A stretch of DNA of 22,126 nucleotides from a virus. Below, piece after piece: positions 1 through 15,564 of the stretch (positions are counted from its first letter, which is position 1; each line of letters begins with the position of its first letter). A model generated the notes under the pieces. It saw only the letters and a program-made list of their open reading frames with translations. It was not told where the DNA came from and searched no databases. The stretch lies in IMG/VR virus record IMGVR_UViG_3300034283_001069, positions 1-22,126 of that record; one strand, given 5' to 3'. The position numbers were made by a program, and so were the translations under genes.

Positions 1-23
1 GATTTGTAATTTGCGCTTGTCAT
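1..23 (-). CDS. Start of a further tail-region gene, cut by the window edge
   Basis: An ATG at 23-21 overlaps the TGA stop (25-23) of the 1006-aa hub gene in an ATGA arrangement, the same junction type used at 4042/4039. Only seven full codons are visible, reading M-T-S-A-N-Y-K, so no function can be assigned. A purine-rich AAGAGA lies just upstream inside the end of the hub gene and could act as a weak ribosome binding site. By position it is likely another tail or tail-fibre gene in the same operon. The call rests on the start-stop overlap and the continuing operon. Confidence 0.55.
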
Positions 24-3000
24 CAGTCTCTTATGAAAGTATATGTCATGCCACCACCCGATGTCGGGGTGGTCGTAGGAGGAGCCACAGGAATAGGTTC
101 AGGGGTCGGAGACCCAGAAGGTAATTCTACACTATCCTTAGGTTTAATGAACGATTTTGCCATCACTTGGGAGAATCCAAATGCAAGATACTCTGCGCCG
201 TTTGCATTGCCAATCCACTGCTGCGCGCTTAACGTGAGCGGCTTGCGCAAATCCAATCCGTCGTCTACGATGTAAACGTTAAGATCATCTCCAAGAGAGT
301 ACCCATCGTGTGGTGTGATTGTGTTCGGCACAACATTAACTTGGATGGAAAACAAGCGATCTGGCTGAAGGTTATACTGAAGTTGCGCAGAGAAATCAAT
401 GTCGTTACGCTCATCGTCCGTCTCTGCCACCTTGTCAATTAGCGCATACTCAGCGTACAGGGAAGCATCAGTGTCTCCGTTGTATGCAGTAAACGCAGTG
501 CCCCCGTCCACGAACGCCTTGTTCAGGACGCTTGCTCTGGTCGCCATCTGATCAAGGTTGTCGTCAAGAACGTACTGCTTAACGTTTGTTCCGTATCGCA
601 GCCACCAATTGGGCTGAGTCACCTGCCCTTGTGTAAGGTGGCGGTGGCGAAGTCCGACGCTCATGGTATTAATCTTGGCAGCAGGAAGACCCACGTTAGG
701 ATTCTCAACGATTACTCGGTCTGTCGTACCAGCCATTAGCACGTCTGCCATTGCCGACATGGAACGCATAGCCTGCTGCCCCGCCACCGCAACGCTTTTC
801 TTTGCGGTAGCCGTAGCGTTGCCGCTATTAACGACGCTGTAGTCCCTAAAGAATACGGTCGGGGACTCGCCCCATCCCATATCCATAATTGTTTTTGCTG
901 GAGTTGCGGTGCCGCCAGAAGTATACGTGCCAATGAATGTATCTCTTACCTCAAACCACTCGTCTTCTCGCGCAACAATAGTCTTTAGCGGGATGTTAAA
1001 CCCCGAAGGAGAAACCCCAGTAATTGTTACGACCTGACCAGTGAAGAAGGTGTTGGCTGCCGTGTATCGGATGATCCCGTTCTTGCTTGGGGTTGCCAAA
1101 CCGCCTGATGTATACGTTCCAGTTACCGTATCCCAAATGTCAAACGTTGTAGCCGTCGCCCCCTTGACTTCTTTGTCGGAAAGGTTAAACACGGTCGGGG
1201 TTACACCAGTAATTTTTACAATGTCGCTAACGGCGAAAGTGTTGTTTGCAGTAAATCTAATGGTACCAGAAGTTGCGGTACCGCCAGAAGTCCAGGCGGT
1301 TGTAGTGCTACTGGCGATCTCAAAATACGTTCCTGTTGCACCCGTAATAATTTGGTTGCTCAGGTTGTAGGACGTTGGGGATACCCCAGTTATGCTTACC
1401 CGACCACCGACAAAGAACGTATTGGTTGCAGCGAATCTTACTGTTCCCGCAACAGGGAAGGAGATCCCCGTGATAGTGGCTGGGGCAGGGATAGTTATTC
1501 CAGTAATAGTAGCGGTCGGAAAACCGACAGCACCCGTAACCGTAGCCGTCGCAACGTTGCGTGCCATGATGTCGTCATGAAGGTTGGCAAGGGTTACGTC
1601 AACGTGGGAGTAGTCCTCCCCAGTAAAGGCGGTGCTTACCATCGTTCGGTCCATCATTCCAGGTTTGTCAATGCCATAGAAGACCACTTCGTGAGGGTAG
1701 CGAACCGACTTTACAATAAGCCCTTCGCTTAGCACACGGAAGTAACCGTTGTTATCGTCCCATCGGCATGCACGCCAGAAAGTTTTTTGCGGCTGGATAA
1801 ACTGAATCTGCGGGTGGTCGGACTTTACCGTAAAGAACACTTCCCCAGAGCCGTTAACCTGCTGGGCGATACCGATTTTCTTTGCATCAAATATTACTGC
1901 TGATGGATTAGGGTCAAACCCATTAAGGCTTGACAAGAGTGGATAAAATTCTAAGCGGTATTTGTTCCTTGCGATAGTCTTGGTTGTAGAAAAGTTTGGG
2001 TTTCCTTCTGGAGGAGGGAATCCCGATGTGTTGGTTGGTGCCGTGAAGGATGCAGTTGCTAACGTGCTCCAATCGCTCACGACGTTAGAAGTGTCGTATG
2101 ACCGCACACGCCAGTAATAGTCAATGTTGGAATCAAAGTTGATCATTGGTACGGATGCCGTAAGCGGCGTAGTTGTCGTTGGGTATGAAGCGGTAAAGAT
2201 TGGCGACGACCAGTCTGAGTTCTTGCTAATTTCAAGATCAAACTTACTCGGCAAATCGCCAGCGTCTGGGTCGCTATGCGTTGCAGTAAACGTAATTGCG
2301 TCCCCGCTCTGCAAAGCAAGGCTAAGCGGGCTGGTAGGTACTGGCATGTTTGGCTTAGTGTTCGTGGTGTAGGTTAGGGTAATGGTTGGAGCGACCGACC
2401 CGTACGTGCTAGCACCCTCTACAGAGTAGAACTCAGCGCCGTGAGAAGTTGTTGAAGACACGCTGTTCATCTTCATAAGGATGCCGTAGTTCGGCTGCGC
2501 CTGCCCTGCTACACCCGTCGTAGCCCCCACTAGGAGCGACGCTGGGGCGATCTTTTGGATAAAGGGTAGGATGTTTACAGAGTAACTATTCTTGTTGGCA
2601 ATGGTCCCCGATAGGTCAAGAAACGCATCTACTGCTGAGTCGTAGTGAGTGCCAGCAGTCCTGACACGACTGTTCCAGTTTTGGGTACTGGATGGCTTCC
2701 ACCCAGTAACAACATCGTCGCCCACCCCCGTCGTAAAGCCTGTTCGCAAACGATGAAAGTTTACCCGTCTTGAGCCGCTGTTAACCGTCATTCTCTCAGC
2801 ACCGTTATAGTATCTAAGAGTAAGGGTTGCCGCAGTAATCTGTCCAGCGCCAGTAAGGGAAGAGAAATTAATTGGAATGTTTATCAAAGATCGGAACGAG
2901 AACGGAGTACCAGAAGAACTGCTAACTCCTACTGGGTTAGAGCGGTACTTTCCATTCCAGTTTGCCAGACCCGTCTCTGTTCCAGATGAGTACGAGGCAA

Positions 3001-3043
3001 TGGCACTTGCATCTACTGTTGCGGTAAACGTTGCCGTTGCCAC
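23..3043 (-). CDS. Tail-hub / tail-associated protein with DNRLRE-like and FN3-like domains
   Basis: A 1006-aa structural protein starting at GTG (3043-3041), immediately after the TAA of the Dit-like gene. Residues about 1-227 resemble a DNRLRE-type beta sandwich: a buried R-S-L-I-N-I-P strand, an A-A-T-L-T-L-R strand, and a closing P-T-I-T-L-T-Y strand. Residues about 231-336 look like a fibronectin-III fold (Y-Y-W-R-V-R-S-Y-D then D-W-S). Residues about 355-495 and 718-962 resemble the tail-hub proteins annotated as ReqiPepy6 Gp37-like in actinobacterial siphophages. Three copies of a roughly 62-residue repeat (533-716) interrupt this hub region. A Pro/Ser/Thr-rich tail (970-998) ends the protein. 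It contains one cysteine (C426). Inferred role: tail-tip hub that also displays host-binding modules. The domain names are recognised by eye; the tail location is much firmer than any receptor specificity. Confidence 0.72.
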   Translation of the reverse strand: MATATFTATVDASAIASYSSGTETGLANWNGKYRSNPVGVSSSSGTPFSFRSLINIPINFSSLTGAGQITAATLTLRYYNGAERMTVNSGSRRVNFHRLRTGFTTGVGDDVVTGWKPSSTQNWNSRVRTAGTHYDSAVDAFLDLSGTIANKNSYSVNILPFIQKIAPASLLVGATTGVAGQAQPNYGILMKMNSVSSTTSHGAEFYSVEGASTYGSVAPTITLTYTTNTKPNMPVPTSPLSLALQSGDAITFTATHSDPDAGDLPSKFDLEISKNSDWSSPIFTASYPTTTTPLTASVPMINFDSNIDYYWRVRSYDTSNVVSDWSTLATASFTAPTNTSGFPPPEGNPNFSTTKTIARNKYRLEFYPLLSSLNGFDPNPSAVIFDAKKIGIAQQVNGSGEVFFTVKSDHPQIQFIQPQKTFWRACRWDDNNGYFRVLSEGLIVKSVRYPHEVVFYGIDKPGMMDRTMVSTAFTGEDYSHVDVTLANLHDDIMARNVATATVTGAVGFPTATITGITIPAPATITGISFPVAGTVRFAATNTFFVGGRVSITGVSPTSYNLSNQIITGATGTYFEIASSTTTAWTSGGTATSGTIRFTANNTFAVSDIVKITGVTPTVFNLSDKEVKGATATTFDIWDTVTGTYTSGGLATPSKNGIIRYTAANTFFTGQVVTITGVSPSGFNIPLKTIVAREDEWFEVRDTFIGTYTSGGTATPAKTIMDMGWGESPTVFFRDYSVVNSGNATATAKKSVAVAGQQAMRSMSAMADVLMAGTTDRVIVENPNVGLPAAKINTMSVGLRHRHLTQGQVTQPNWWLRYGTNVKQYVLDDNLDQMATRASVLNKAFVDGGTAFTAYNGDTDASLYAEYALIDKVAETDDERNDIDFSAQLQYNLQPDRLFSIQVNVVPNTITPHDGYSLGDDLNVYIVDDGLDLRKPLTLSAQQWIGNANGAEYLAFGFSQVMAKSFIKPKDSVELPSGSPTPEPIPVAPPTTTPTSGGGMTYTFIRD
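896..1447 (-). repeat. Three tandem protein-level repeats within the tail-hub gene
   Basis: Three consecutive units lie at 1447-1268, 1267-1082 and 1078-896, coding for residues 533-592, 593-654 and 656-716 of the hub protein. Each unit begins G-[TI]-[VI]-R-[FY], passes through N-T-F and a V-x-I-T-G-V-[ST]-P core followed by [YF]-N, and ends T-S-G-G-x-A-T. The copies have clearly diverged, so the repeat is visible in protein and only weakly in DNA. They probably form a row of small beta domains projecting from the hub. Confidence 0.85.
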
Positions 3044-4042
3044 TTAGAACCACTTCTCTCGCCAGTACGCAGTAACCGTGTATCCAGTTGTAATGTCTGT
3101 AAGGGTACTTGCGTTTTGAACCCTAACCTTAATTGGTGTCCCGACAGCGAGATCCGCTAGGGGTTCAACCGTAGCAAACAGTGCGCCAGAGTTTATGTTG
3201 ATTAGGTTCATTGTGACCGATGCGGTTGTTGCAAGAGTCGTAGTGTTTTGTTCTCGGGTATAAACAACCTGATCGCTGTAATCAATAAGCCAGGATCGGT
3301 TAATAGAGCCGTCCAGTCCAGCCGTCTGGGTGATGTTTAGTTCCAAAGGAACACCGTCCACTGTAACGGTGACTAGCAAATCGTCCGTACGTGCTGTATT
3401 CCCAGTGGATTCAATCCCAATTTGCAGGTCCGCTGGGGCAGCGCCGTAATTGTTTACGGTAACGTTCGTGTTATTAATAGGAACCACCAACTCGTTAATA
3501 GAGTCCGCGTATTTGTACGGGTACTTCAGCAGGAAATAGAGCAGCATCTTTGTAGAATACCCAAGGGCATCTGATCCAGAAAATTGCGCCGAGGTAGACT
3601 CGGACTGAGGGATTTGCAGGGGTCGGGCAAGGAAGTGGATTTTGATTTCCCCGTCTTGGAAGTTAGCATCCGTTGTAATCATGGTAGCACTCAGTTTCCT
3701 AAACCCGTCGCTTGACTCAAAGGTCTTAGGCATAAACCGCATGAGGTTAATAATGTTCTGAACATTTTGAAATAGGTTTGCCCGACTTGACCCGTAAACG
3801 TCTACCTGCACAGTAAGAATCCGCCTACCCGCAAACGCCTCGGCGGTATCAACCCCGTCAGAAATTGTCTTTGGGTCCTCATATCCAATTGGTAAACTTG
3901 AACCAATTCCAAACCCAGAAACTGAGTAGCCTGACAACGGAACACCGCCGCCAGCAAGCAACGGGTTACCCGTAATTGTGTTAATGTTTACGTCATCGCC
4001 CTTACCATTCTGGTAAGAAATTGCGCTACTTAGATCAATCAT
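3044..4042 (-). CDS. Dit-like distal tail protein
   Basis: A 332-aa protein. The start chosen is ATG at 4042-4040, which forms an ATGA overlap with the TGA of the upstream adaptor gene. An upstream ATG at 4087 would force a 49-bp overlap and is less likely. Residues about 70-180 match the N-terminal beta domain of distal tail proteins: G-R-R-I-L-T-V-Q-V-D-V-Y-G, then a helix with N-V-Q-N-I-I-N-L-M, then a region ending in R-P-L-Q-I-P. Residues about 186-332 resemble the galectin-like C-terminal domain; the stretch V-N-N-Y-G-x-A-P-A-D-L-Q-I at 196-208 is typical of it. Family knowledge: Dit forms a hexameric ring joining the tail to the baseplate hub. The hub gene follows directly, as in siphophages, but no tape-measure gene precedes it. 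No cysteine is present. Confidence 0.72.
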   Translation of the reverse strand: MIDLSSAISYQNGKGDDVNINTITGNPLLAGGGVPLSGYSVSGFGIGSSLPIGYEDPKTISDGVDTAEAFAGRRILTVQVDVYGSSRANLFQNVQNIINLMRFMPKTFESSDGFRKLSATMITTDANFQDGEIKIHFLARPLQIPQSESTSAQFSGSDALGYSTKMLLYFLLKYPYKYADSINELVVPINNTNVTVNNYGAAPADLQIGIESTGNTARTDDLLVTVTVDGVPLELNITQTAGLDGSINRSWLIDYSDQVVYTREQNTTTLATTASVTMNLININSGALFATVEPLADLAVGTPIKVRVQNASTLTDITTGYTVTAYWREKWF

Positions 4043-4725
4043 CCAAGCCTGCGCATCTTGCGCAAGCGACCGCGCTCTCCGAACCATCGCTGGCGAGCAG
4101 AGTTTGCAAGCACAGCCAACTCGCTAATGCTAATGTCGGTAGAGCCAGAAGCAATTTGCCACTGCTGGAAGTTTGCACGGTCGGTCATTAGGCGAGAGAG
4201 AGACTCGGCTACCGCGTAGACTCGGACTGCCTGCTGCTCCTGGTCGGTAAGCGTCGTCGCCGTCACATCGTCATCAAGGAATGGGTGGCGACCGTATCCA
4301 AAGACCCGAAGTTTAATTTGCTCAGTCGGATTGCCATTAACGGACACAGTAATAGATGGGTAGAAATAATTCTCTGGAATAAGAATCTTCCCGCCGAACC
4401 ACTCCCACCCTCCAGAGGACCCCTCATTTGCACTTGGTGGCAGCGTGGTGTGTAGTTGGCTGCTGTTGTTAAGGATCTCAACACGGAAAATGTTGAAGAA
4501 CTCACTAGTCGGAGTTACCTCTTTGATTTTACCAAATGCGTTCTGCGAGATGGAGTATGGGAATGTATAAGTAATATCCTCGCGGATTTCTCGCGGGGAA
4601 AGATCGGATACGGCATTAATTCCTGAGTTAATCAGGTCGTTTAGTTCTTCGTCGCTCCAAGAATTCCCATTGGGATCTCGGAGTTCTCGTTGAATCTGTT
4701 CCCTTATGTCTGCACGAGTTGCCAT
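4039..4725 (-). CDS. Head-tail adaptor / connector protein
   Basis: A 228-aa protein starting at ATG 4725-4723 behind a strong AGAAGGAGAAGG ribosome binding site. The N-terminal 45 residues are helical, with R-A-D-I-R-E-Q-I-Q-R and S-D-E-E-L-N-D-L-I-N-S-G-I, a pattern common in proteins that dock onto the portal (gp6-type adaptors and podoviral tail-tube A proteins). A beta-rich middle (50-150) is followed by a helix at 160-190 and an Arg-rich C-terminus (R-x-R-W-F-G-E-R-G-R-L-R-K). Position between the major capsid gene and the Dit-like gene supports the role. I do not recognise the exact family. It could instead be a tail completion protein. It has no cysteine and is coupled to the next gene by ATGA. 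Confidence 0.6.
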   Translation of the reverse strand: MATRADIREQIQRELRDPNGNSWSDEELNDLINSGINAVSDLSPREIREDITYTFPYSISQNAFGKIKEVTPTSEFFNIFRVEILNNSSQLHTTLPPSANEGSSGGWEWFGGKILIPENYFYPSITVSVNGNPTEQIKLRVFGYGRHPFLDDDVTATTLTDQEQQAVRVYAVAESLSRLMTDRANFQQWQIASGSTDISISELAVLANSARQRWFGERGRLRKMRRLG

Positions 4726-6364: not shown

Positions 6365-9300
6365 TCACTTAGGTCGGATGATATCCCGAAGGGACTCAGC
6401 CGCGTCTCCAATTGCGTCTCCAGCCTGTGCCAGAAGACTATCTTCTTTAAAGAGCGCATAGTCAAGAATCTTACCTGCCTCTTGTGCAGCGCGACCAAGA
6501 CCAACGATTCCGACAGCCTGATCGGAAACAGCCCGTCCTATTGTACCAAAGTTTGGTCGCTCACCAGAGGTAAACTCTTCTCCGATTACCCGAACTGGTC
6601 TACTCAGCGATGTGCCAACCTCCGATGGCAAGCCAGGAATAAGAGTATTGGCAAGCATATAGATAAGCGGGTTCTTAGTTGCGGTTGCGTCTTCGCCAAG
6701 ATTTTCAACCATCGCCTGCCTAATATCAGACGCAGCGTTAAAGCCAACAAGCGGAGCGTACTTTCCCCAGTTCTCTGCGCTAAACTTTGAGCCGCCGAAG
6801 GCACGTAGAATTGCCATCCATGGAGCGAGGACCATACCAGAAACACCTCTTGTCGGGCTAAGGTAGAGCATTCGCGAATACTCTGGAAGAACCTTTCCGA
6901 ACATGTACGAGACTGGGTATAGGGCAAAGACTGGATGGTTAAGCGATCTTTCCAGGAAACTTCTTCCTGGGTTAAAGAAGTGGGTTTTATCCGCGCGGGC
7001 AGCAGCGCCGTCAATGCTATGAATAATCGCGTTCCACATGGTTTCCTCTGGGGCACGAGCACCGCGAATGTGGATAAGACTATCCTTTAGCGTGTCAAGA
7101 ATTTCTGGAGAAAGGCGCTCTCCCTTCATTGCCTTCGTAATAGCAATAGAAATCTGCGGGACTAACTCCCGACGCTTTTCCGCCACTACGAATAGCGCAG
7201 CCATTTCGTTAGCAAGCGGCTTTGAAATTCCGTCGGCAATAAGCGCATCACGAACCAGTCCTTTTCTAGCCACAGCGGTTTCAAACTCTGAACGCAGCGC
7301 GCCTCTTGCATCATCAAGCGAGGATACTACAGCATCTGCAGTAGTCGTTGATTTCTTTGTAAGGTTGTTTTTAACAGTAAGCCTGGCTGCAGTGCGAGCA
7401 GTTTCAATTGCGCCCTTTGCCCTCGTGAGAGCGTCAAGACCCTCAACGCTGTATCCAATAATTGCAGCCTCTGCGTGAATTGCCCCAAGGCGTTTATCTA
7501 GATCGTCAAGAGCAGCGCGGCGAACGGCGGGGTCTTTGCTTTTAACTTTCTTAGAAAGTTCCCGAACTGTAATGTCAAGATTCTTAATTGGGGCATCGTC
7601 GTACTGACGACCAAAGCCCATCCCCATTGGCTTGTTTGCATCAAGGTAAGATCGGGCGGACTGCCTCCCTCGGATAAGTGCTTGGCGTTCCCTCATCATG
7701 ATTAGCGCAGCGCCTCGCCTATCACCGCCAGCCAACTTTAACCACGTTGCCCACTGCATTGGCGCGTGCTCCGCAAAGCGAGCGCCAAGTCCGTCCGCAA
7801 TCTCATCAAGCGACTCAGATGTTACATACTTGTACCAGTCGTTAGCCTTGTATCTACCAACGTTTTGGGCACCTCCAAGGGACTCAGCAAGCCCCTTAAC
7901 AAACGATTCGCTATTTGCACCGAACGGAGATAGGATGGCATCTGTAACGCTGCCAGCGTAATACATATTAATTGAATTCATCTCCTGGGCAAATTTTAAT
8001 TCTGATCTTTCTGAAATATAAAGTTCCGCAAGAACGTCAACGGAATCTACCTTAACAATCTTGCCCGTTGCTGGATCTTCAATATCATAAAAACGTTTTG
8101 TTCCAAATCGGATGTCATCCGCCATACTGGACTCAATGCCCCTCTTTCGCAAAATCTGACCAAGGCTCATCTCGGATCCGTACCCACGAATAGTGTTCCA
8201 GTACTTAGACTCAATAACCTCCTGAAGTCCGAAGATGGGGCTTAGCGTGAACTTAACGGATGGGTAGATCATGTCTGGGATTGAGGTAACAAAATTGGCA
8301 GTGATTTCTGTTTTAATCCTTCCCGTAAGTTTTGATGTTAAGCCAACAACAGATGCGTCTCCTTCCGCCGCCAAGAAAATCATACGTCGGAGTTCCCCAC
8401 TGGTTTTCATTGCAAGAAGCGTTTCGTAATCTGTCTGAGACAACTTCTTTGCATCCAAAATAAGTTCGTCAATAATTGTAGTTGACGTATTTGAACCTTG
8501 GTTTGCCTCCGTGAATGCGGTTCTTATGGATCCTTTCATCTCAAACGCCCTGTCGGTAAGTCGCGAATGGAGTTTGCGAACCATTGCTCGCGAGATCGGC
8601 AGGTTCTTTTGGATTACGTACTCCTGCATTCGGGTAAGCGTGTTTGCCACGACAGCGGTCGTTCTTCGTTCTCTTGTTAGAGTGTCCAGTGCAGACCCAA
8701 GAAAATTGCGATTCCCTAGTGTTACATCAATCGCGTCATCTGTAATTGGGACCCACAGGTCTACACCGAATCGGCTAACGTCTTTGGTTACGGCGTTTTG
8801 ATATACCCTGTTTGGAATTGTTGCAATTTTTGCAGCGGTTTCTGGTTCAAACGCAAGACGGTATTCTCCGCGCTCGGCAGAATTTCGCATTGCCCCTAGT
8901 TCTGGCAAAACTTCGTCGGCTCCCTTAAACTCGTCAATGGGAACCTCCTTAAGGAACGACCCTTCCTCGTATTGGCTAAGAGTGTCCTGGAGCGCATCAA
9001 CCGCCTTCTTCTGTGACGCCTCGTCGCCAGTAGCAAGTCGGGCAAACCCCTTTGCGTCGTATTGATTACGAAGAATACTAAAACGCCTTACTGCGTATAG
9101 CGCTGCCTTCGCCCTCTCCGCCGTGCTAAGAGTGTCGTCAGCAAGGATTCGGACAGTGGTTGCGTAATCCTTGTCGGTCATAGTGTCCTTGGCGACGATT
9201 GTCCATCTTTCTGCCTGCTCAACCATAGGTCTAGTAATGTCGGAAAGGCGAGAGCGAACTGCGGTAGTGTTGATTCGGCTTAGCAAACTCTTCTTCGCTG

Positions 9301-10717
9301 CACCAAACTGCTTGGCAACGTATCCAAGCCGCATAACTTCTGATGCGTAAATAAGTTCTCCGAGTTGGCGAACATTAGACCCGCTGCTTTTAGCCGCTAG
9401 GCGAAGGCTCTCTTCCCAAATCTCTGCGGCTACCGAGTCTCCAACGATAGGGCTTAGGTTAGAAAGAAACTCTTCTTTGGCAAGCGCAATTCGCCCAGCG
9501 TCATCCGACGCACCTGACAGCAAAAACATTGCTTCGTCAACCGCAACGGTTTTTTGATCTTCCACCCTTCGGGCAATAGCCACCTCGTCAATCGTTCGCT
9601 CCGCCTTAAGAATTGAAAGAACTCCCGTTTTCCCAATCTGTTCATTGATTTCCCCAGCAACGTTTTGATTTAAAATCTCTCGGTAAACTGCGGTCTCCGC
9701 CTTAAGCCCAGCGCTCTTTGCAACGAGGTGAAGTTGTTTCCACTCAGCGGTAATGTACTCAAGGCTGTCTCCAGCGGTTTCGGAACTTCCGCTATTTACT
9801 CGGACGTACTTGTCAAATGCAACTGTGTCGTCTACCCCGCTAGACTTGGCAACGATTTGAGCCTTGCGAAGAGCCGATGCCCTGCTCTGTCCAAATACGC
9901 GGTTGGTTACTACGTCCGCAGCCGCACCCATTGTGACATGGTTTGTTCCCACCGCAACGGCATCTATTAACTGGTCCGAAACCTTTGAACGCTTAGCAAC
10001 CTCAATAGCAGTGAAAAGGAAGCGAACACCAATAATTGCTGCGGCAACTCCAGAGCCGCGCCCAAGCATTGCGGTTGCCATCCCACGCTTAATTCCCCCG
10101 AGACCTTTGGCGGTCTTTGAGTACATTCTGCCTAGCAACTCCTTGCCAGAGTTTCCTTTAAGCCACGCCTCTTCTTCTGCACTTGCACCGTACCGCACGG
10201 CAGAAGAAGCAATACCGTCAACAGTTGTCTGGTTAATACGCTCCTGGATGCTGGCACTTTTCTTTGCAACGTCGTACCCCTTGCCAGCGCCAGCAGCAAT
10301 AAGGTTAAACGGATCCATGAAGACGGCAAGCAGGAGTTCGGTCGCAGCGTCGTTTGTTATTCCAGCGCTTTCATTTGCCATCTGGTCTGCAACGTCGCTG
10401 ATGCTCATGCCATTGACACGGACCATGTCAATGTAGCGCTGGGAAATTCCTAGGTCAAGTCCAGTTAATTGCTGACCCAAACGCTTCTCTGCAATCTCAC
10501 CGCTAACAATTTCAAAAGGTGTGTTGACTACTTCCCCAAGAGTTCCAAGTGTCGCGGATACCCCACCGCCCAAAAGACCTGCCGACCCACCAAGCAGGTC
10601 AACTCCAAATGTTCCAGGTCGGTCAAGACCAGTTTGTTCTGGCTCAGAACCGCCGCCAATCCCAGGTCCAACTACTGGCGGGAGCGACCCGCTATTTCCA
10701 GATACGAGCCTTACCAT
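6365..10717 (-). CDS. Giant 1450-aa protein, probable virion-internal protein, unknown family
   Basis: At 4.35 kb this is the largest gene in the window. Its ATG overlaps the previous stop as TAATG (1 bp), with TAGGAAC upstream. I do not recognise the family. Visible features: a Gly/Pro-rich N-terminus; a Gly-rich hydrophobic stretch at about 37-64; a hydrophobic segment at about 224-241 (A-A-A-I-I-G-V-R-F-L-F); then about 1000 residues of mostly helical, highly charged sequence; and an aromatic, Pro-containing segment at 1260-1272 (N-H-P-V-F-A-L-Y-P-V-S-Y-M), followed by another hydrophobic stretch (V-L-A-P-W-M-A-I-L). No cysteine is present. No peptidase, lytic transglycosylase or nuclease signature stood out. 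Size, amphipathic helices and position beside the portal suggest an ejection or internal-core protein. A tape-measure role is an alternative, though its location before the scaffold argues against it. Confidence 0.6.
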   Translation of the reverse strand: MVRLVSGNSGSLPPVVGPGIGGGSEPEQTGLDRPGTFGVDLLGGSAGLLGGGVSATLGTLGEVVNTPFEIVSGEIAEKRLGQQLTGLDLGISQRYIDMVRVNGMSISDVADQMANESAGITNDAATELLLAVFMDPFNLIAAGAGKGYDVAKKSASIQERINQTTVDGIASSAVRYGASAEEEAWLKGNSGKELLGRMYSKTAKGLGGIKRGMATAMLGRGSGVAAAIIGVRFLFTAIEVAKRSKVSDQLIDAVAVGTNHVTMGAAADVVTNRVFGQSRASALRKAQIVAKSSGVDDTVAFDKYVRVNSGSSETAGDSLEYITAEWKQLHLVAKSAGLKAETAVYREILNQNVAGEINEQIGKTGVLSILKAERTIDEVAIARRVEDQKTVAVDEAMFLLSGASDDAGRIALAKEEFLSNLSPIVGDSVAAEIWEESLRLAAKSSGSNVRQLGELIYASEVMRLGYVAKQFGAAKKSLLSRINTTAVRSRLSDITRPMVEQAERWTIVAKDTMTDKDYATTVRILADDTLSTAERAKAALYAVRRFSILRNQYDAKGFARLATGDEASQKKAVDALQDTLSQYEEGSFLKEVPIDEFKGADEVLPELGAMRNSAERGEYRLAFEPETAAKIATIPNRVYQNAVTKDVSRFGVDLWVPITDDAIDVTLGNRNFLGSALDTLTRERRTTAVVANTLTRMQEYVIQKNLPISRAMVRKLHSRLTDRAFEMKGSIRTAFTEANQGSNTSTTIIDELILDAKKLSQTDYETLLAMKTSGELRRMIFLAAEGDASVVGLTSKLTGRIKTEITANFVTSIPDMIYPSVKFTLSPIFGLQEVIESKYWNTIRGYGSEMSLGQILRKRGIESSMADDIRFGTKRFYDIEDPATGKIVKVDSVDVLAELYISERSELKFAQEMNSINMYYAGSVTDAILSPFGANSESFVKGLAESLGGAQNVGRYKANDWYKYVTSESLDEIADGLGARFAEHAPMQWATWLKLAGGDRRGAALIMMRERQALIRGRQSARSYLDANKPMGMGFGRQYDDAPIKNLDITVRELSKKVKSKDPAVRRAALDDLDKRLGAIHAEAAIIGYSVEGLDALTRAKGAIETARTAARLTVKNNLTKKSTTTADAVVSSLDDARGALRSEFETAVARKGLVRDALIADGISKPLANEMAALFVVAEKRRELVPQISIAITKAMKGERLSPEILDTLKDSLIHIRGARAPEETMWNAIIHSIDGAAARADKTHFFNPGRSFLERSLNHPVFALYPVSYMFGKVLPEYSRMLYLSPTRGVSGMVLAPWMAILRAFGGSKFSAENWGKYAPLVGFNAASDIRQAMVENLGEDATATKNPLIYMLANTLIPGLPSEVGTSLSRPVRVIGEEFTSGERPNFGTIGRAVSDQAVGIVGLGRAAQEAGKILDYALFKEDSLLAQAGDAIGDAAESLRDIIRPK

Positions 10718-13566
10718 TAAACGTTCCTATTTCTTGCAATTGGCGTGTATTTAACTCCAGTTTGTGGAAGCCCGCCAGTTCCGCCTTTCGCCGTTGGCAT
10801 ATTTCGCATAAACGTTTGCAGCATGCGATCCGACTGCTGACCTGATTGTGCTCGGTTAATTCCCCCAGTTACAACGTTGCCCATCCCAGTTCCCGCAACT
10901 GATGCAGCGCGTGCGCGGTCGTACCGTCCTAGGTACGAATCCATTTTGTCTTTGGTTGCTTTAGGAATGTTCATGCCTGAGGTCATAGGCTTAACAGAAC
11001 CGCCAGTCTTCTTTGCGCCAGTGTCCCACATAAAGCCAGTGCCGCCAGAGAACGCTTCGCCAAGCGTAAGATCCCTTCCGCCTGCGGTCTTTGAGATAAC
11101 AGTAGATGCATCTTGACCCGCCCATTGCGTTCCAGCCCAGCGATCTTTCCCAACCCTTTGATTCCCGCTACTGGGGCGGGTAGATCCGTCTCCTGCTCCT
11201 GATCCCTCTCCTGGGGTTGTGTCAACTGTTGGGAAAAGTTCTGTAATTTGCGTAAGCATTTCAGGTGAGATCATCTCGGTAATATCTAGGTCAATTAACG
11301 CTTCCCCTTGCGAGCCGCCAATCTTTTTCCCGTCGGGGATATAAACCCTTCCATTCCGAACGGTAAGCAATCCGTCCTTAACAGCCTTTCGGATACCCCC
11401 GTCAACAATTCCCTGGTAATCCGAAGCCCATGTATATCCCTTATCCTTAAGAAGACCCCAAACGCTCCCGTCCGAAAGATCCGTTGCGTCAAGAGAGTCA
11501 CCATCACCAAGTTTGACTAAGGACTCTCCCGCTGTAACGGGAACAGTAATGACTCGGTTTCCCCCAACATTGTCTACGAGGGAGTTCCAATTTCCGTTTC
11601 GCAAATACTGCTGGACAAACTGTTGAGCAGCACTTCCCGTAAGCAACTTGTTACTCGTATCTGCGTTTTGGCTAAACACAATGTATTTAAACGTTCCGTC
11701 GCTTTGCTTAACCCTAGAAACCCACCCTCGGGTATATTTGTCAATGTCGGTTGGGTCAGCCTGACCTCCTGGAATAACGATGCGAATGCGCTGAAGGTTC
11801 TGGTTAACAAGGGAAGAAATTGTTGTTTTGCCAGCAATGGTAATTGTTCCAAGCGTTTTAATCATAACGCCTTGACCTTTCTCCCATGCGGACGTGTCTT
11901 GCGTGCCAGTGTCTGGAACGTCCTCTCCGTCAATGTCAGTAATGACAGTTCCGTTTCCAGCGATCCATTCGGTTTCTTGATCATAAACGCTAGTGATTGC
12001 GTCAAAGATTGACGTTCCCTCGCCAGAAGTCCCTGGTGAAATAATTCCTCCTAGAATTGTCTGGGGATCATAAATTCCCCGAACGTTATTTCCGCCGAGA
12101 ATGTTTCCGCTGTATTCCCCGTACAGGTCCGAGGTGTCTGAGGGTCGTCTACCCGTTATATACATAGCCGATTCGTTTTGTAGGGATCGCGCGATGTCGC
12201 TAGGGATTCCCGAGGTTCCAGAAATTGTATTCAGTCTCGCGCCGAACGCCCTGAGTGCTGCGGCGCGTGCACCAATATCCGCTCCAGCCTTGTCCATTGC
12301 CTTTCCGAGGTCGTCAACCGCATCATCGTAGTTGTCCTCAACAGTAAGAATTGGAGCAGCCTTTCCTAGCACCGTTGCAAACCTGTCCCAACTGGCAATG
12401 GTTTTTCTTGTTGTGTCAGTGACACTAGGATTATTCTTTGCCCACTTTACAAGAGCGGCAGCGGAAGAGCGCGCGTCTTTCATCATGTCAGAAATGTTGT
12501 CAATTGTTAGGGTAATCTTTGTTCCATCGGGTCTCTTAATAGAACCCCCATTAACTGAAATAAATTGATCTAGGATTGAAAGCGCGGCGTTCTGGTTTCC
12601 AGCCAGCAGTTGTGCAAACGAAGTTTCGCCAAGCAAATCTTTAATGGTTGGTGCTGCCTTCATTGCTTCGTCAATTGCATCTAGGTCCTTAAAGATATTG
12701 TCGTACCCTGCATTAATCCTCTTGTCTGCGGCAGCCCCCGCCATGTTCTTATTTGCAATAGACTGATTCTCTTGGAGGTTTCGGATACTTGAAAGAACTT
12801 TTTCTGCTTCTGTTGCCAAGCCGTACTTAGAGGAACTGAGCAAGTCGTACGCCTGTTGCAAAAACTTCAACTGCTCTGTGTACCCTTGGTACTTTGCGGA
12901 GTCCGTTGTTCGCGACTTAGACAACCACGCCGCATTCCCCTTTGCAACAATTACCGAAGCCTCTGCAATGACCTTTTCCTTGTTGTATTTTTCAGAAGCC
13001 TCTGGGTTCCGCCCAATCGCGTCGTCGTACAGGGAAAGAAACACATCCTGATTGGCACCGCCAGCAAAGTCAATTGTCTTTCCGTTTATCGTTACTTTCC
13101 CCCCAGACGCAAACTGGTTTTGTGTGTTGGTAAGAAGATCGTCAACCGCATCGTTTAGTTCGTCCCGCAACTCATCAATGTCGTCTGGGTTCAACGTTGG
13201 GTCAAGAAGCATTTCCTCAATCACTCGCACCTTGTTTGCGTAATCTCCGTTGGCGCTTTGCTCCTTAAGAGTTGTGTCAATTTCGTTAAGCGTTCTGGTT
13301 CGGCTTGCCTTGCGAATAGCACGAAGAGTTTCCTCAACGTCCATTCGCGACTTGCCCCCCTTGGTCGTAGTCGCCATCATCTTATTAAGCAACTCAATGG
13401 CGATAGCAGAAGTAATCTCGCGACCTTCAAACGACTCTTTGTTCACAAAGGCTTTATAAATTCGGTTTAGTCTCAGGGTAATGTAGGACGAAGCGATCCC
13501 GCTAATTGAAGAAGCGAGAGACCCGCTCCCCGTAATGATCTTACCGAACTGACCAGTTACTGCCAT
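10717..13566 (-). CDS. Large 949-aa protein, probable virion component, unknown family
   Basis: It follows the portal stop by 3 nt, with a GGGTGG site upstream of ATG 13566-13564, and overlaps the 1450-aa gene by one base. I do not recognise it. Residues 1-460 look helical and charged (for example D-D-I-D-E-L-R-D-E-L-N-D-A-V-D-D-L-L at 128-145). Residues about 535-760 look beta-rich (I-K-T-L-G-T-I-T-I-A-G-K-T, R-I-R-I-V-I-P-G-G). From about 783 the sequence is Gly/Ser/Thr-rich and low complexity, ending in a basic tail. There is no cysteine and no clear enzyme motif. Its pairing with the 1450-aa gene and tight junctions to both neighbours suggest the two work together in the virion, perhaps at the portal vertex. 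That is inference from context. Confidence 0.58.
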   Translation of the reverse strand: MAVTGQFGKIITGSGSLASSISGIASSYITLRLNRIYKAFVNKESFEGREITSAIAIELLNKMMATTTKGGKSRMDVEETLRAIRKASRTRTLNEIDTTLKEQSANGDYANKVRVIEEMLLDPTLNPDDIDELRDELNDAVDDLLTNTQNQFASGGKVTINGKTIDFAGGANQDVFLSLYDDAIGRNPEASEKYNKEKVIAEASVIVAKGNAAWLSKSRTTDSAKYQGYTEQLKFLQQAYDLLSSSKYGLATEAEKVLSSIRNLQENQSIANKNMAGAAADKRINAGYDNIFKDLDAIDEAMKAAPTIKDLLGETSFAQLLAGNQNAALSILDQFISVNGGSIKRPDGTKITLTIDNISDMMKDARSSAAALVKWAKNNPSVTDTTRKTIASWDRFATVLGKAAPILTVEDNYDDAVDDLGKAMDKAGADIGARAAALRAFGARLNTISGTSGIPSDIARSLQNESAMYITGRRPSDTSDLYGEYSGNILGGNNVRGIYDPQTILGGIISPGTSGEGTSIFDAITSVYDQETEWIAGNGTVITDIDGEDVPDTGTQDTSAWEKGQGVMIKTLGTITIAGKTTISSLVNQNLQRIRIVIPGGQADPTDIDKYTRGWVSRVKQSDGTFKYIVFSQNADTSNKLLTGSAAQQFVQQYLRNGNWNSLVDNVGGNRVITVPVTAGESLVKLGDGDSLDATDLSDGSVWGLLKDKGYTWASDYQGIVDGGIRKAVKDGLLTVRNGRVYIPDGKKIGGSQGEALIDLDITEMISPEMLTQITELFPTVDTTPGEGSGAGDGSTRPSSGNQRVGKDRWAGTQWAGQDASTVISKTAGGRDLTLGEAFSGGTGFMWDTGAKKTGGSVKPMTSGMNIPKATKDKMDSYLGRYDRARAASVAGTGMGNVVTGGINRAQSGQQSDRMLQTFMRNMPTAKGGTGGLPQTGVKYTPIARNRNV

Positions 13567-13569
13567 TTA

Positions 13570-15564
13570 TTAACCACCCTGTCCGAACATCAACTGCTCT
13601 TCTGTCTGCGCTACTTGCGCTTCGTTTTCTGGCATTGCCTCCGCCGCCGATGGCGGGATCAATCCCTCATCGTTCATGGACTCGCTTCCCATTGGGGGCG
13701 GGTTTTGCCCGCGCATCGCTTCCATTGCTGATTGCTGATCAAGCGGCGATCCAGGTTCACCAATTCCCTGCGGAGCCTGCAAGCCAAGTTGTCGGAACGA
13801 TCCAACCACGCTCGCCATTGTTGCAACAGCCGCTGGGTTAATTGTAGCATCTGTCTGCTCGTCTCGGATAATATCCTTTTCGTTCTGCGGATCATCTACG
13901 CCTACGCGATCCATTGCGCGCTCAGCCGACCAGATGCGATTTTGCACAAGGCTAATTGCTGTGTTAGCAAGTTCAAGCGTGTCGCGAGGGGTCAACTCAG
14001 GGGGGACAACTTCAATGCGATACTGACCATTAATTACAAGGGCAACGGTTTCATCATTGTACGACCATACTTGAGCAGCCATCTTCCAAACCTTTTTAAT
14101 CCAGTTGTAGAACAACTTACGCTTTGGCGCAATGCGCTGCTCGTAGTTAGCAACCAGCGAGGCAATGGCTCGTGACGATCCAAGTACGCTTGAAGGAGCA
14201 ATACCAAGAAGCAGATCGTTAAGACCAGAGACGACGGCTAGTTCTCGGTCAATACGCTGATTGTATTGCTCAATCTGGATGTTGGGGAGGAACGGCTGGA
14301 TTGGCTCAATGCGGTTTCCTGCGCCAGGGGCGGCAATACGACCTGGCTTCGGGATTGCATTTGCAGGGACTTCCTCTGGGGCATCCTGCCCAACCAACTG
14401 GAACATTTGCCCGCCCACAATCTGATGAATGAATTGCGCGGCGTTTGTGATGCGCTCGTCCTTTTCTCGGAGAAGTTGCTCAACGTCGTATAGTTCTGGC
14501 TTTCCGTATGGAGACCCAGGAATGCGAGAGTTGATGAGCGGGATATATGGAAGTTCGCCGTTGTACTCTGGCTGCTCCGAATCCTTGATAAGTTCGTTGC
14601 CAACAAAAACGCAGTTGTAGGTCTTAACTTCATCACCCACAACTTTCTTGTACCAGTAGTCGTAGACACTTACCTGAAGGCGCTCGTACGCAGTATCGCG
14701 ACGGTCAACGCTTCGCTCAGCCTGCGACGCAAATGCAGTGACAAGGGGGTCCGCATGGGTTCCGTTGTATACAAATGGGAAATACTCGTTGCCCATCTTC
14801 ATTGGGATTACGTCAACGCCGAACTCGTCCATAACTGCCTGAGGGCTAAGACCGTAGTGATAAAGCGCCCAGTCAATACGTGTGAAGTCAGATGCGCCAT
14901 ATCCCATGTAAAGGTTTTCTGGGGCAGAGATTACTTCTACGCGAGGAACGCCGTCCTTCTTGTCGTACGTTATCTTTGCAGCGGTATCTCCGTAGAGGGA
15001 CTTGTAAAGGGCTGCATCTTCCATAACGATATCCATGTCCGCCTCTTCCCACCATCGGAAGAAAATTCGCTCTCGCGCCGCAGCCTCTTCTCGGTCCTCT
15101 CGCTCATTTCCTGAAGGAAGATAGTTGATGACTGGGCGAACGGCTTGTAGCGAGGCTGGGATAGACACATACGATGGGTGAACGTTAACGGATACGTGGG
15201 CGCGACCGCTAAGTCGCGCGGACTGATCGTCTGCCCAGTGGTCTGCGCCGCCAATGGTCATTGTTCTTGCGTGGAAAAGATTGTCAAAGCGTCGGAACAA
15301 TTGTCGTCGTCGTGCGTTCTCGGACTCAACGCTTCCCTTGCGCTCAAGGATCTCGGCAAGTTTCTTGGCGGCTTCCTGACCGCCAGTTACCTCAGCGTTC
15401 TTGACTAACTTCTTTGCTTCCTCAGCAAGAACCGTACTTCCCATGAATCGGCTTCCGCGACCAGCAATCTTGGCAACAAGTTTGGCTCCCTTCTGAGCCA
15501 TGTCAATAACCTGTGGGTCATTGGTCTGAAGGGATGGGATCTGTGATGCATTTCTCTTAGCCAT
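13570..15564 (-). CDS. Portal protein
   Basis: A 664-aa protein directly after the large terminase gene, overlapping its stop as TAATG. Portals form the 12-subunit ring through which DNA enters and leaves the capsid. Supporting segments: R-R-F-D-N-L-F near 91-97; H-V-S-V-N-V-H-P-S-Y-V-S-I near 123-135, leading into V-I-N-Y-L-P; the helical F-F-R-W-W-E-E-A-D-M-D-I (168-179); L-Y-G-D-T-A-A-K-I; and A-P-E-N-L-Y-M-G-Y-G. Later there is a long helical stem/wing region with R-E-K-D-E-R-I-T-N-A-A-Q-F. The C-terminus is Gln/Glu/Pro-rich and probably flexible. An extra 80-residue Lys/Ala-rich helical N-terminus precedes the usual start region; the TAATG junction supports it being real. Only one cysteine is seen. 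Confidence 0.85.
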   Translation of the reverse strand: MAKRNASQIPSLQTNDPQVIDMAQKGAKLVAKIAGRGSRFMGSTVLAEEAKKLVKNAEVTGGQEAAKKLAEILERKGSVESENARRRQLFRRFDNLFHARTMTIGGADHWADDQSARLSGRAHVSVNVHPSYVSIPASLQAVRPVINYLPSGNEREDREEAAARERIFFRWWEEADMDIVMEDAALYKSLYGDTAAKITYDKKDGVPRVEVISAPENLYMGYGASDFTRIDWALYHYGLSPQAVMDEFGVDVIPMKMGNEYFPFVYNGTHADPLVTAFASQAERSVDRRDTAYERLQVSVYDYWYKKVVGDEVKTYNCVFVGNELIKDSEQPEYNGELPYIPLINSRIPGSPYGKPELYDVEQLLREKDERITNAAQFIHQIVGGQMFQLVGQDAPEEVPANAIPKPGRIAAPGAGNRIEPIQPFLPNIQIEQYNQRIDRELAVVSGLNDLLLGIAPSSVLGSSRAIASLVANYEQRIAPKRKLFYNWIKKVWKMAAQVWSYNDETVALVINGQYRIEVVPPELTPRDTLELANTAISLVQNRIWSAERAMDRVGVDDPQNEKDIIRDEQTDATINPAAVATMASVVGSFRQLGLQAPQGIGEPGSPLDQQSAMEAMRGQNPPPMGSESMNDEGLIPPSAAEAMPENEAQVAQTEEQLMFGQGG

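Follow-up and report, generated by a model that had tools for sequence, protein, structure and literature searches.

Coupled Giant Genes Between Portal and Scaffold as a Candidate Ejection-Protein Pair of Uncultured Phages

Introduction

What might be the role of two giant proteins whose genes fill the space between the portal and scaffold genes of an uncultured phage? This question is raised by a 22,126-base IMG/VR fragment (the whole stretch analyzed here, referred to as the window), in which every gene lies on the minus strand and the order of transcription is: collagen-like fibre, C39-like protein, several small genes, terminase large subunit (TerL), portal, the two giants, scaffold-like protein, capsid, a 228-aa connector-like, a 347-aa Dit-like and a 1006-aa protein. 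An initial annotation of this DNA placed proteins of 949 and 1450 aa (P949 and P1450), joined by a TAATG overlap, between portal and scaffold, and our reading of the ORFs and of the junction found all of these particulars to be exact (Table 1).

Table 1. Coordinates of the giant genes, their conserved elements and their neighbors in the window.
Feature	Coordinates	Strand	Basis or remark
Terminase large subunit, 516 aa	15564..17114	-	phrog_2 E 3.8e-18
Portal protein, 664 aa, directly upstream of P949	13570..15564	-	phrog_156 E 7.9e-10; SPP1_portal E 8.3e-7
P949, first giant gene, 949 aa	10717..13566	-	ATG start; proposed gp15-like ejection/internal core protein
P949 conserved N-terminus, MA..GxFGR...G.SNL.SLI... 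in relatives	13437..13566	-	Sequence conservation
TAATG stop/start overlap of P949 and P1450	10715..10719	-	Junction sequence
P1450, second giant gene, 1450 aa	6365..10717	-	ATG start; proposed gp16-like ejection/internal core protein
P1450 aromatic motif NHPVFALYPVSYMFGK, about residues 1260-1275	6891..6940	-	Highest conservation within the family
Scaffold-like protein, 188 aa, directly downstream of P1450	5782..6348	-	phrog_3760 E 0.0014 (weak) and position
Major capsid protein, 326 aa	4783..5763	-	phrog_1357 E 3.8e-47
Head-tail connector-like protein, 228 aa	4039..4725	-	phrog_399 E 6.6e-5
Dit-like hub protein, 347 aa	3044..4087	-	phrog_33 matches of orthologues
Large tail/fibre-type protein, 1006 aa, last of structural block	23..3043	-	Position; weak Prophage_tailD1 the only family match

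Results

As an observation, the two giant genes are real: dozens of loci contain orthologues of full length, and purifying selection is strong (dN/dS of about 0.02–0.20), which shows that these ORFs are not a product of chance. The portal stop is located three bases ahead of the P949 start (GGTGGTTAATAAATGGCA), and at the junction of the giants (...GTTTAATGGTAAGG) the TAA stop of P949 and the ATG start of P1450 have one A in common. A search of IMG/VR with P1450 yielded six relatives, and more were recovered with a profile of its C-terminal part; a portal profile revealed 271 IMG/VR relatives, 80 of which were fetched for analysis. No IMG/VR match was obtained with the window P949 and its own patterns alone and, since these patterns missed orthologues that do exist, negative pattern scans carry little weight. 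Among 50,697 isolate-phage records, tblastn at the limits used gave no match to P1450, portal or TerL of the window. The comparison of gene order in related metagenomic phages, which the initial annotation had proposed as a check, yielded the same order of adjacent genes (portal, P949, P1450, scaffold, capsid) in all 46 IMG/VR loci reaching both giants, with an identical one-base TAATG overlap in 41 of them. P949 orthologues (53 sequences) span 867–975 aa and those of P1450 1278–2161 aa, a spread mainly due to a single insertion. The size order is thus that of T7/P22-type pairs, for which published sizes are 431–982 aa (gp15-like) and 609–1337 aa (gp16-like) (PMC8954989), P1450 being slightly above the latter range.

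With respect to predicted folds, the AF2 model of P949 is helical at residues 17–480 (pLDDT about 80–94), beta-rich at 535–780 and disordered after 780, and that of P1450 (residues 251–1450) consists almost entirely of helices, with moderate confidence (mean pLDDT 65). The description of both proteins as largely charged and helical therefore applies, as to helicity, to the modelled part of P1450 and to P949 up to residue ~480, but neither to the remainder of P949 nor to the charged residues, the fraction of which (23–25%) is ordinary. In place of the hydrophobic stretches noted earlier, there is a single strong one (P1450 residues 223–241), which is not conserved, and no conserved transmembrane segment was found in the giants. 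The aromatic motif reported near the C-terminus of the larger protein, NHPVFALYPVSYMFGK, is real, and its strict form is present in 33 of 38 P1450 orthologues. The conserved N-terminus of P949 is a candidate partner-binding peptide.

Profiles of both giant families gave no credible Pfam, PHROG or PDB-sequence match, and the window proteins themselves no Pfam or PHROG match at E ≤ 0.05. Clear homology to a known tape measure, which by the initial annotation would have refuted its proposal, was not found, the best tape-measure match (phrog_167) being weak and absent from the window protein. A comparison by hhalign with ejection proteins of T7, P22, phiKMV and P-SSP7 detected no homology (probabilities of 0.1–1.1); nor was profile homology detected to T7 gp14/15/16, P22 gp7/20/16 or, outside an HExxH domain, gp15/gp16-position proteins of BPP-1-type phages. 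A PDB fold search with both models returned nothing at E ≤ 0.001, and its VIA Z values of 8.8 (P949) and 11.9 (P1450) do not exceed the noise of helical bundles, and neither does the superposition of P949 17–102 on T7 gp15 297–377 (Z 7.4, rmsd 2.7, 72 residues for 6yt5; Z 7.1 for 7k5c; rmsd 2.7–2.9 over 72–75 residues overall). In the BFVD viral fold search, an uncultured-phage orthologue (E 1.5e-56, 35% identity) was followed by one uncultured protein (E 5.8e-4) and by weak matches including three T7-type internal virion proteins (E 0.004–0.03) and several tape measures. Such weak fold matches to internal virion proteins and to T7 gp15 are hints at most.

The insertion responsible for the length spread of P1450 (~700 aa, at window residue ~491–530) carries an ADxTTxxHEIGH motif and is found in six long orthologues of 2118–2161 aa (L072, L077, L083, L044, L045 and L052); HExxH is absent from the window P1450. 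Hence, the earlier statement that no enzyme motif is recognizable is correct for the window proteins but not for the family. The enzyme class of this metallopeptidase-like insert is tentative, as Pfam gives only a weak Peptidase_M48 match (E 0.012). The HExxH domain aligns with the phrog_9880 giants (hhalign probability 99.0, E 4e-18). In PfDIW6, BPP-1, AF, CP2 and others, these giants are encoded after tail and internal-virion genes and after a gp15-position protein, several of these partners being annotated as endolysins. Homology of P1450 as a whole to the BPP-1-type giants was considered and dropped: the phrog_9880 match comprises a ~130-residue HExxH domain of the long orthologues, which the window protein does not have.

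A pronounced scarcity of cysteine is a common feature of both families. P949 orthologues contain 0 Cys in 43,069 aa and those of P1450 2 Cys in 53,628 aa, vs. about 74 and 92, respectively, to be expected if cysteine were as frequent as in the portal, scaffold and capsid proteins of these phages; all 53 P949 and 36 of 38 P1450 orthologues are Cys-free. T7 gp15 and gp16 as well as P22 gp7, gp20 and gp16 have no cysteine. In a modest sample of phages at hand (relatives among them, and not a survey), known gp15/gp16-position proteins (n = 29, 14 phages) have 9 Cys in 36,855 aa (0.24 per 1000; 23 Cys-free) vs. 183 Cys in 30,117 aa (6.08 per 1000; 4 Cys-free) in other large virion/packaging proteins (n = 45; Fisher p 6e-10), a control that covers annotated genes only, with Page and Immanuel3 in the “other” group only. 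The scarcity in known ejection proteins was seen in L102, L106, L107, L109, L110, L113, L124, L125 and others. This signature is not exclusive, since some large fibre-type proteins of the clade (651–704 aa) are Cys-free too. A literature search on cysteine in ejection proteins found, among the papers it matched, no title or abstract reporting such scarcity; Cys-free composition as a mark of ejection proteins is a signature measured here, as opposed to a published definition.

Both giants diverge faster than the portal: at portal identity of 65–72%, P949 is 24% and P1450 33% identical. This resembles the published pattern, with gp15-like proteins 34% identical where portals keep 69% (PMC8954989). 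The dS of the giants also exceeds that of the portal in several genome pairs (L037/L065, L070/L057 and L047/L098), which points to recombination behind a part of the excess divergence and suggests that P949 and P1450 are swapped as a pair.

For the type of virion, the relative G008 is informative, its genome being complete (41,373 bp, 127-base terminal repeat). After the capsid gene it has only glycosyltransferase, connector-like, Dit-like and fibre-type genes. The lack of any tail-tube, terminator or tape-measure candidate in this genome suggests a short tail, and the phage group with the two giants is, judging from gene content, probably short-tailed. Dit-like orthologues match the phrog_33 distal tail protein (E 5e-10 and 3.6e-11), and the window copy has no such match. 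The Dit gene stands right behind the connector gene (window 3044–4087; L004:16558–17544; L115:16863–17756), and a siphovirus-type Dit hub is thus seen in presumably short-tailed phages without a tail-tube or tape-measure gene.

Several other observations were made on the relatives. The capsid protein is matched distantly by proteins of Page-like Bacillus, Immanuel3-like Streptomyces and Vibrio phages. Bacillus phage Page has just a 263-aa gene between portal and capsid; its gp20 (L099:19786–24825, 1679 aa, hypothetical) contains no cysteine and might be ejected or belong to the tail. In one branch of the clade, a glycosyltransferase gene lies between capsid and connector genes (L115:14462–15718), and a 218-aa gene is apparently duplicated at L005:21–1243 (224 and 179 aa, common C-terminal end). 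A Cys-free protein of 431–449 aa encoded far upstream starts with MARLVQR or MVRLVS, resembling P1450 of the same genome (L008:2872–4164 with L004:9926–14254; G002 13443–14792 with L007:10001–14317); this likeness is possibly a shared N-terminal tag, or chance. The sole host hint is a MAG contig labelled Salinibacterium (L105, SCSV01000106.1) with a ~50% identical portal, the binning of which may be wrong; 396 genomes of this order contained no other strong portal relative, and no WhiB motif was found in the clade.

Discussion

Overall, we consider it fairly probable that P949 and P1450 serve a short-tailed phage as ejection, or internal core, proteins, and the best explanation, by analogy, is that they would work like T7 gp15/gp16 or P22 gp20/gp16. 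This reading draws on the observed gene order (a conserved slot) and coupling, conservation, size order, predicted helical folds, divergence, Cys-poor composition and the lack of tail-tube and tape-measure genes in the complete relative. The HExxH domain common to P1450 orthologues and to BPP-1-type giants encoded behind tail and internal-virion genes counts in the same direction, and SPP1 gp7 provides a precedent for the slot. Evidence against it includes the lack of profile homology outside the HExxH domain and of a significant PDB fold match, the absence of an adjoining gp14-like small membrane gene and of a transglycosylase, the usual location of ejection genes after tail-tube genes (PMC10386132), the non-exclusive Cys signature and the share of recombination in the divergence. 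Descent from T7/P22-type ejection proteins found no support in profile comparison. Nevertheless, where phages have diverged, published assignments of ejection proteins are based on size and synteny (PMC8954989), and a lack of homology is therefore compatible with the analogy. The initial proposal of an ejection machine at the portal vertex has in this form become the best-supported reading, with vertex assembly and ejection as its conditional part; coupling to the portal gene alone is no proof of it.

We infer a virion location, portal binding, ejection and conduit formation for both proteins, in the following putative sequence. Made from coupled genes beside the portal gene, they would enter the procapsid along with the portal, above which they would form a core. 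Upon infection, they would exit the head unfolded, ahead of the DNA, via portal, connector and Dit-like hub, and fold anew to build a conduit that spans the cell envelope. P1450 may additionally carry an accessory enzyme domain, such as the metallopeptidase-like insert of some relatives.

Other roles have to be weighed against the ejection of a conduit-forming pair. The giants may be packaged cargo or effectors bound to the portal, in the manner of MuF/SPP1 gp7 or polyvalent proteins, which act on the host after injection and form no conduit. The equal slot of SPP1 gp7 (PMC6316719) and the HExxH domain of the long P1450 orthologues speak for such a role; in polyvalent proteins, zincin-like peptidases are the domain that occurs most often, and packaging is assumed for many of these proteins (PMC5512222). 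However, the window P1450 has no recognizable enzyme domain, let alone the several effector domains (commonly with an HExxH zincin-like one) of a polyvalent protein; none of the 27 and 28 members of the giant families compared with Pfam and PHROG showed a MuF match at E ≤ 0.05; and both genes are always present and paired, unlike optional cargo. We regard cargo as unlikely. A still smaller probability is assigned to inner head or assembly proteins that remain in the head, i.e., a core or a giant scaffold-like pair setting head size or portal incorporation: the position directly between portal and scaffold and the helical, extended predicted folds are compatible with it, but a separate scaffold-like gene exists, and Cys scarcity along with fast divergence is atypical of head proteins of these phages.

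Least probable of all, and in our view very improbable, is a tape-measure or tail function of the giants in a long-tailed phage whose genes have been reordered. Tape measures are likewise long and helical, a Dit-type hub gene is present, weak phrog_167 matches occur in 3 of 27 orthologues (E 0.0013), and tape measures are among the weak BFVD matches. On the other hand, a tape-measure gene is normally located between the tail-tube gene and Dit, whereas the giants lie between portal and scaffold, upstream of the capsid gene; G008 has no candidate for a tail tube (major tail protein) or tail terminator; and P1450 length varies mainly through one insertion.

A bolder version, in which the ejection apparatus is of independent origin (a conduit pair unrelated to T7/P22 that occupies the slot between portal and scaffold and is combined with a siphovirus-type Dit hub behind the connector, the hosts perhaps being Gram-positive actinobacteria), is possible but doubtful. 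Ejection proteins are reported to be absent where Gram-positive hosts are infected (phi29-like phages).

If the ejection of P949 and P1450 holds true, a widespread uncultured phage group (as judged from its portal relatives in IMG/VR) injects its DNA with proteins that databases do not recognize, and an ejection module would be able to shift to the portal side and to diverge past profile detection. With the Cys signature, candidates for ejected proteins could be picked out in unannotated phages without recourse to homology. Sharing of the HExxH domain suggests an exchange of enzyme parts between injected proteins of unrelated phages.

Comparison With Known Systems

SPP1 gp7 and MuF proteins share the portal-scaffold slot with the giants, and gp7 is an internal protein taken into the procapsid by the portal that aids infection (PMC6316719); SPP1 differs in being a long-tailed phage with gp7 as a single protein. 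The phrog_9880 giants of BPP-1-type phages (Bbp10; PfDIW6 gp16) resemble P1450 in that they are the second giant, take the gp16 position, contain hardly any cysteine and have an HExxH domain as in the long orthologues, but their core is unrelated (profile probability 0.2), their genes come after tail-tube genes and their partner has a transglycosylase. P22 gp20/gp16 are adjacent, Cys-free (as is gp7) and joined by the same one-base stop/start overlap; unlike the giants, this pair is encoded after head-completion and needle genes, is far smaller (471/609 aa) and has no detected homology to them. The T7 order differs, as the initial annotation had correctly pointed out: the T7 pair follows the tail-tube genes, and T7 also has gp14 and a transglycosylase in gp16. 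Nevertheless, T7 gp15/gp16 are, like P949/P1450, encoded side by side with the smaller protein (747 aa) ahead of the larger (1318 aa), and they are Cys-free, fast-evolving and mostly helical, the helicity of the giants being a prediction.
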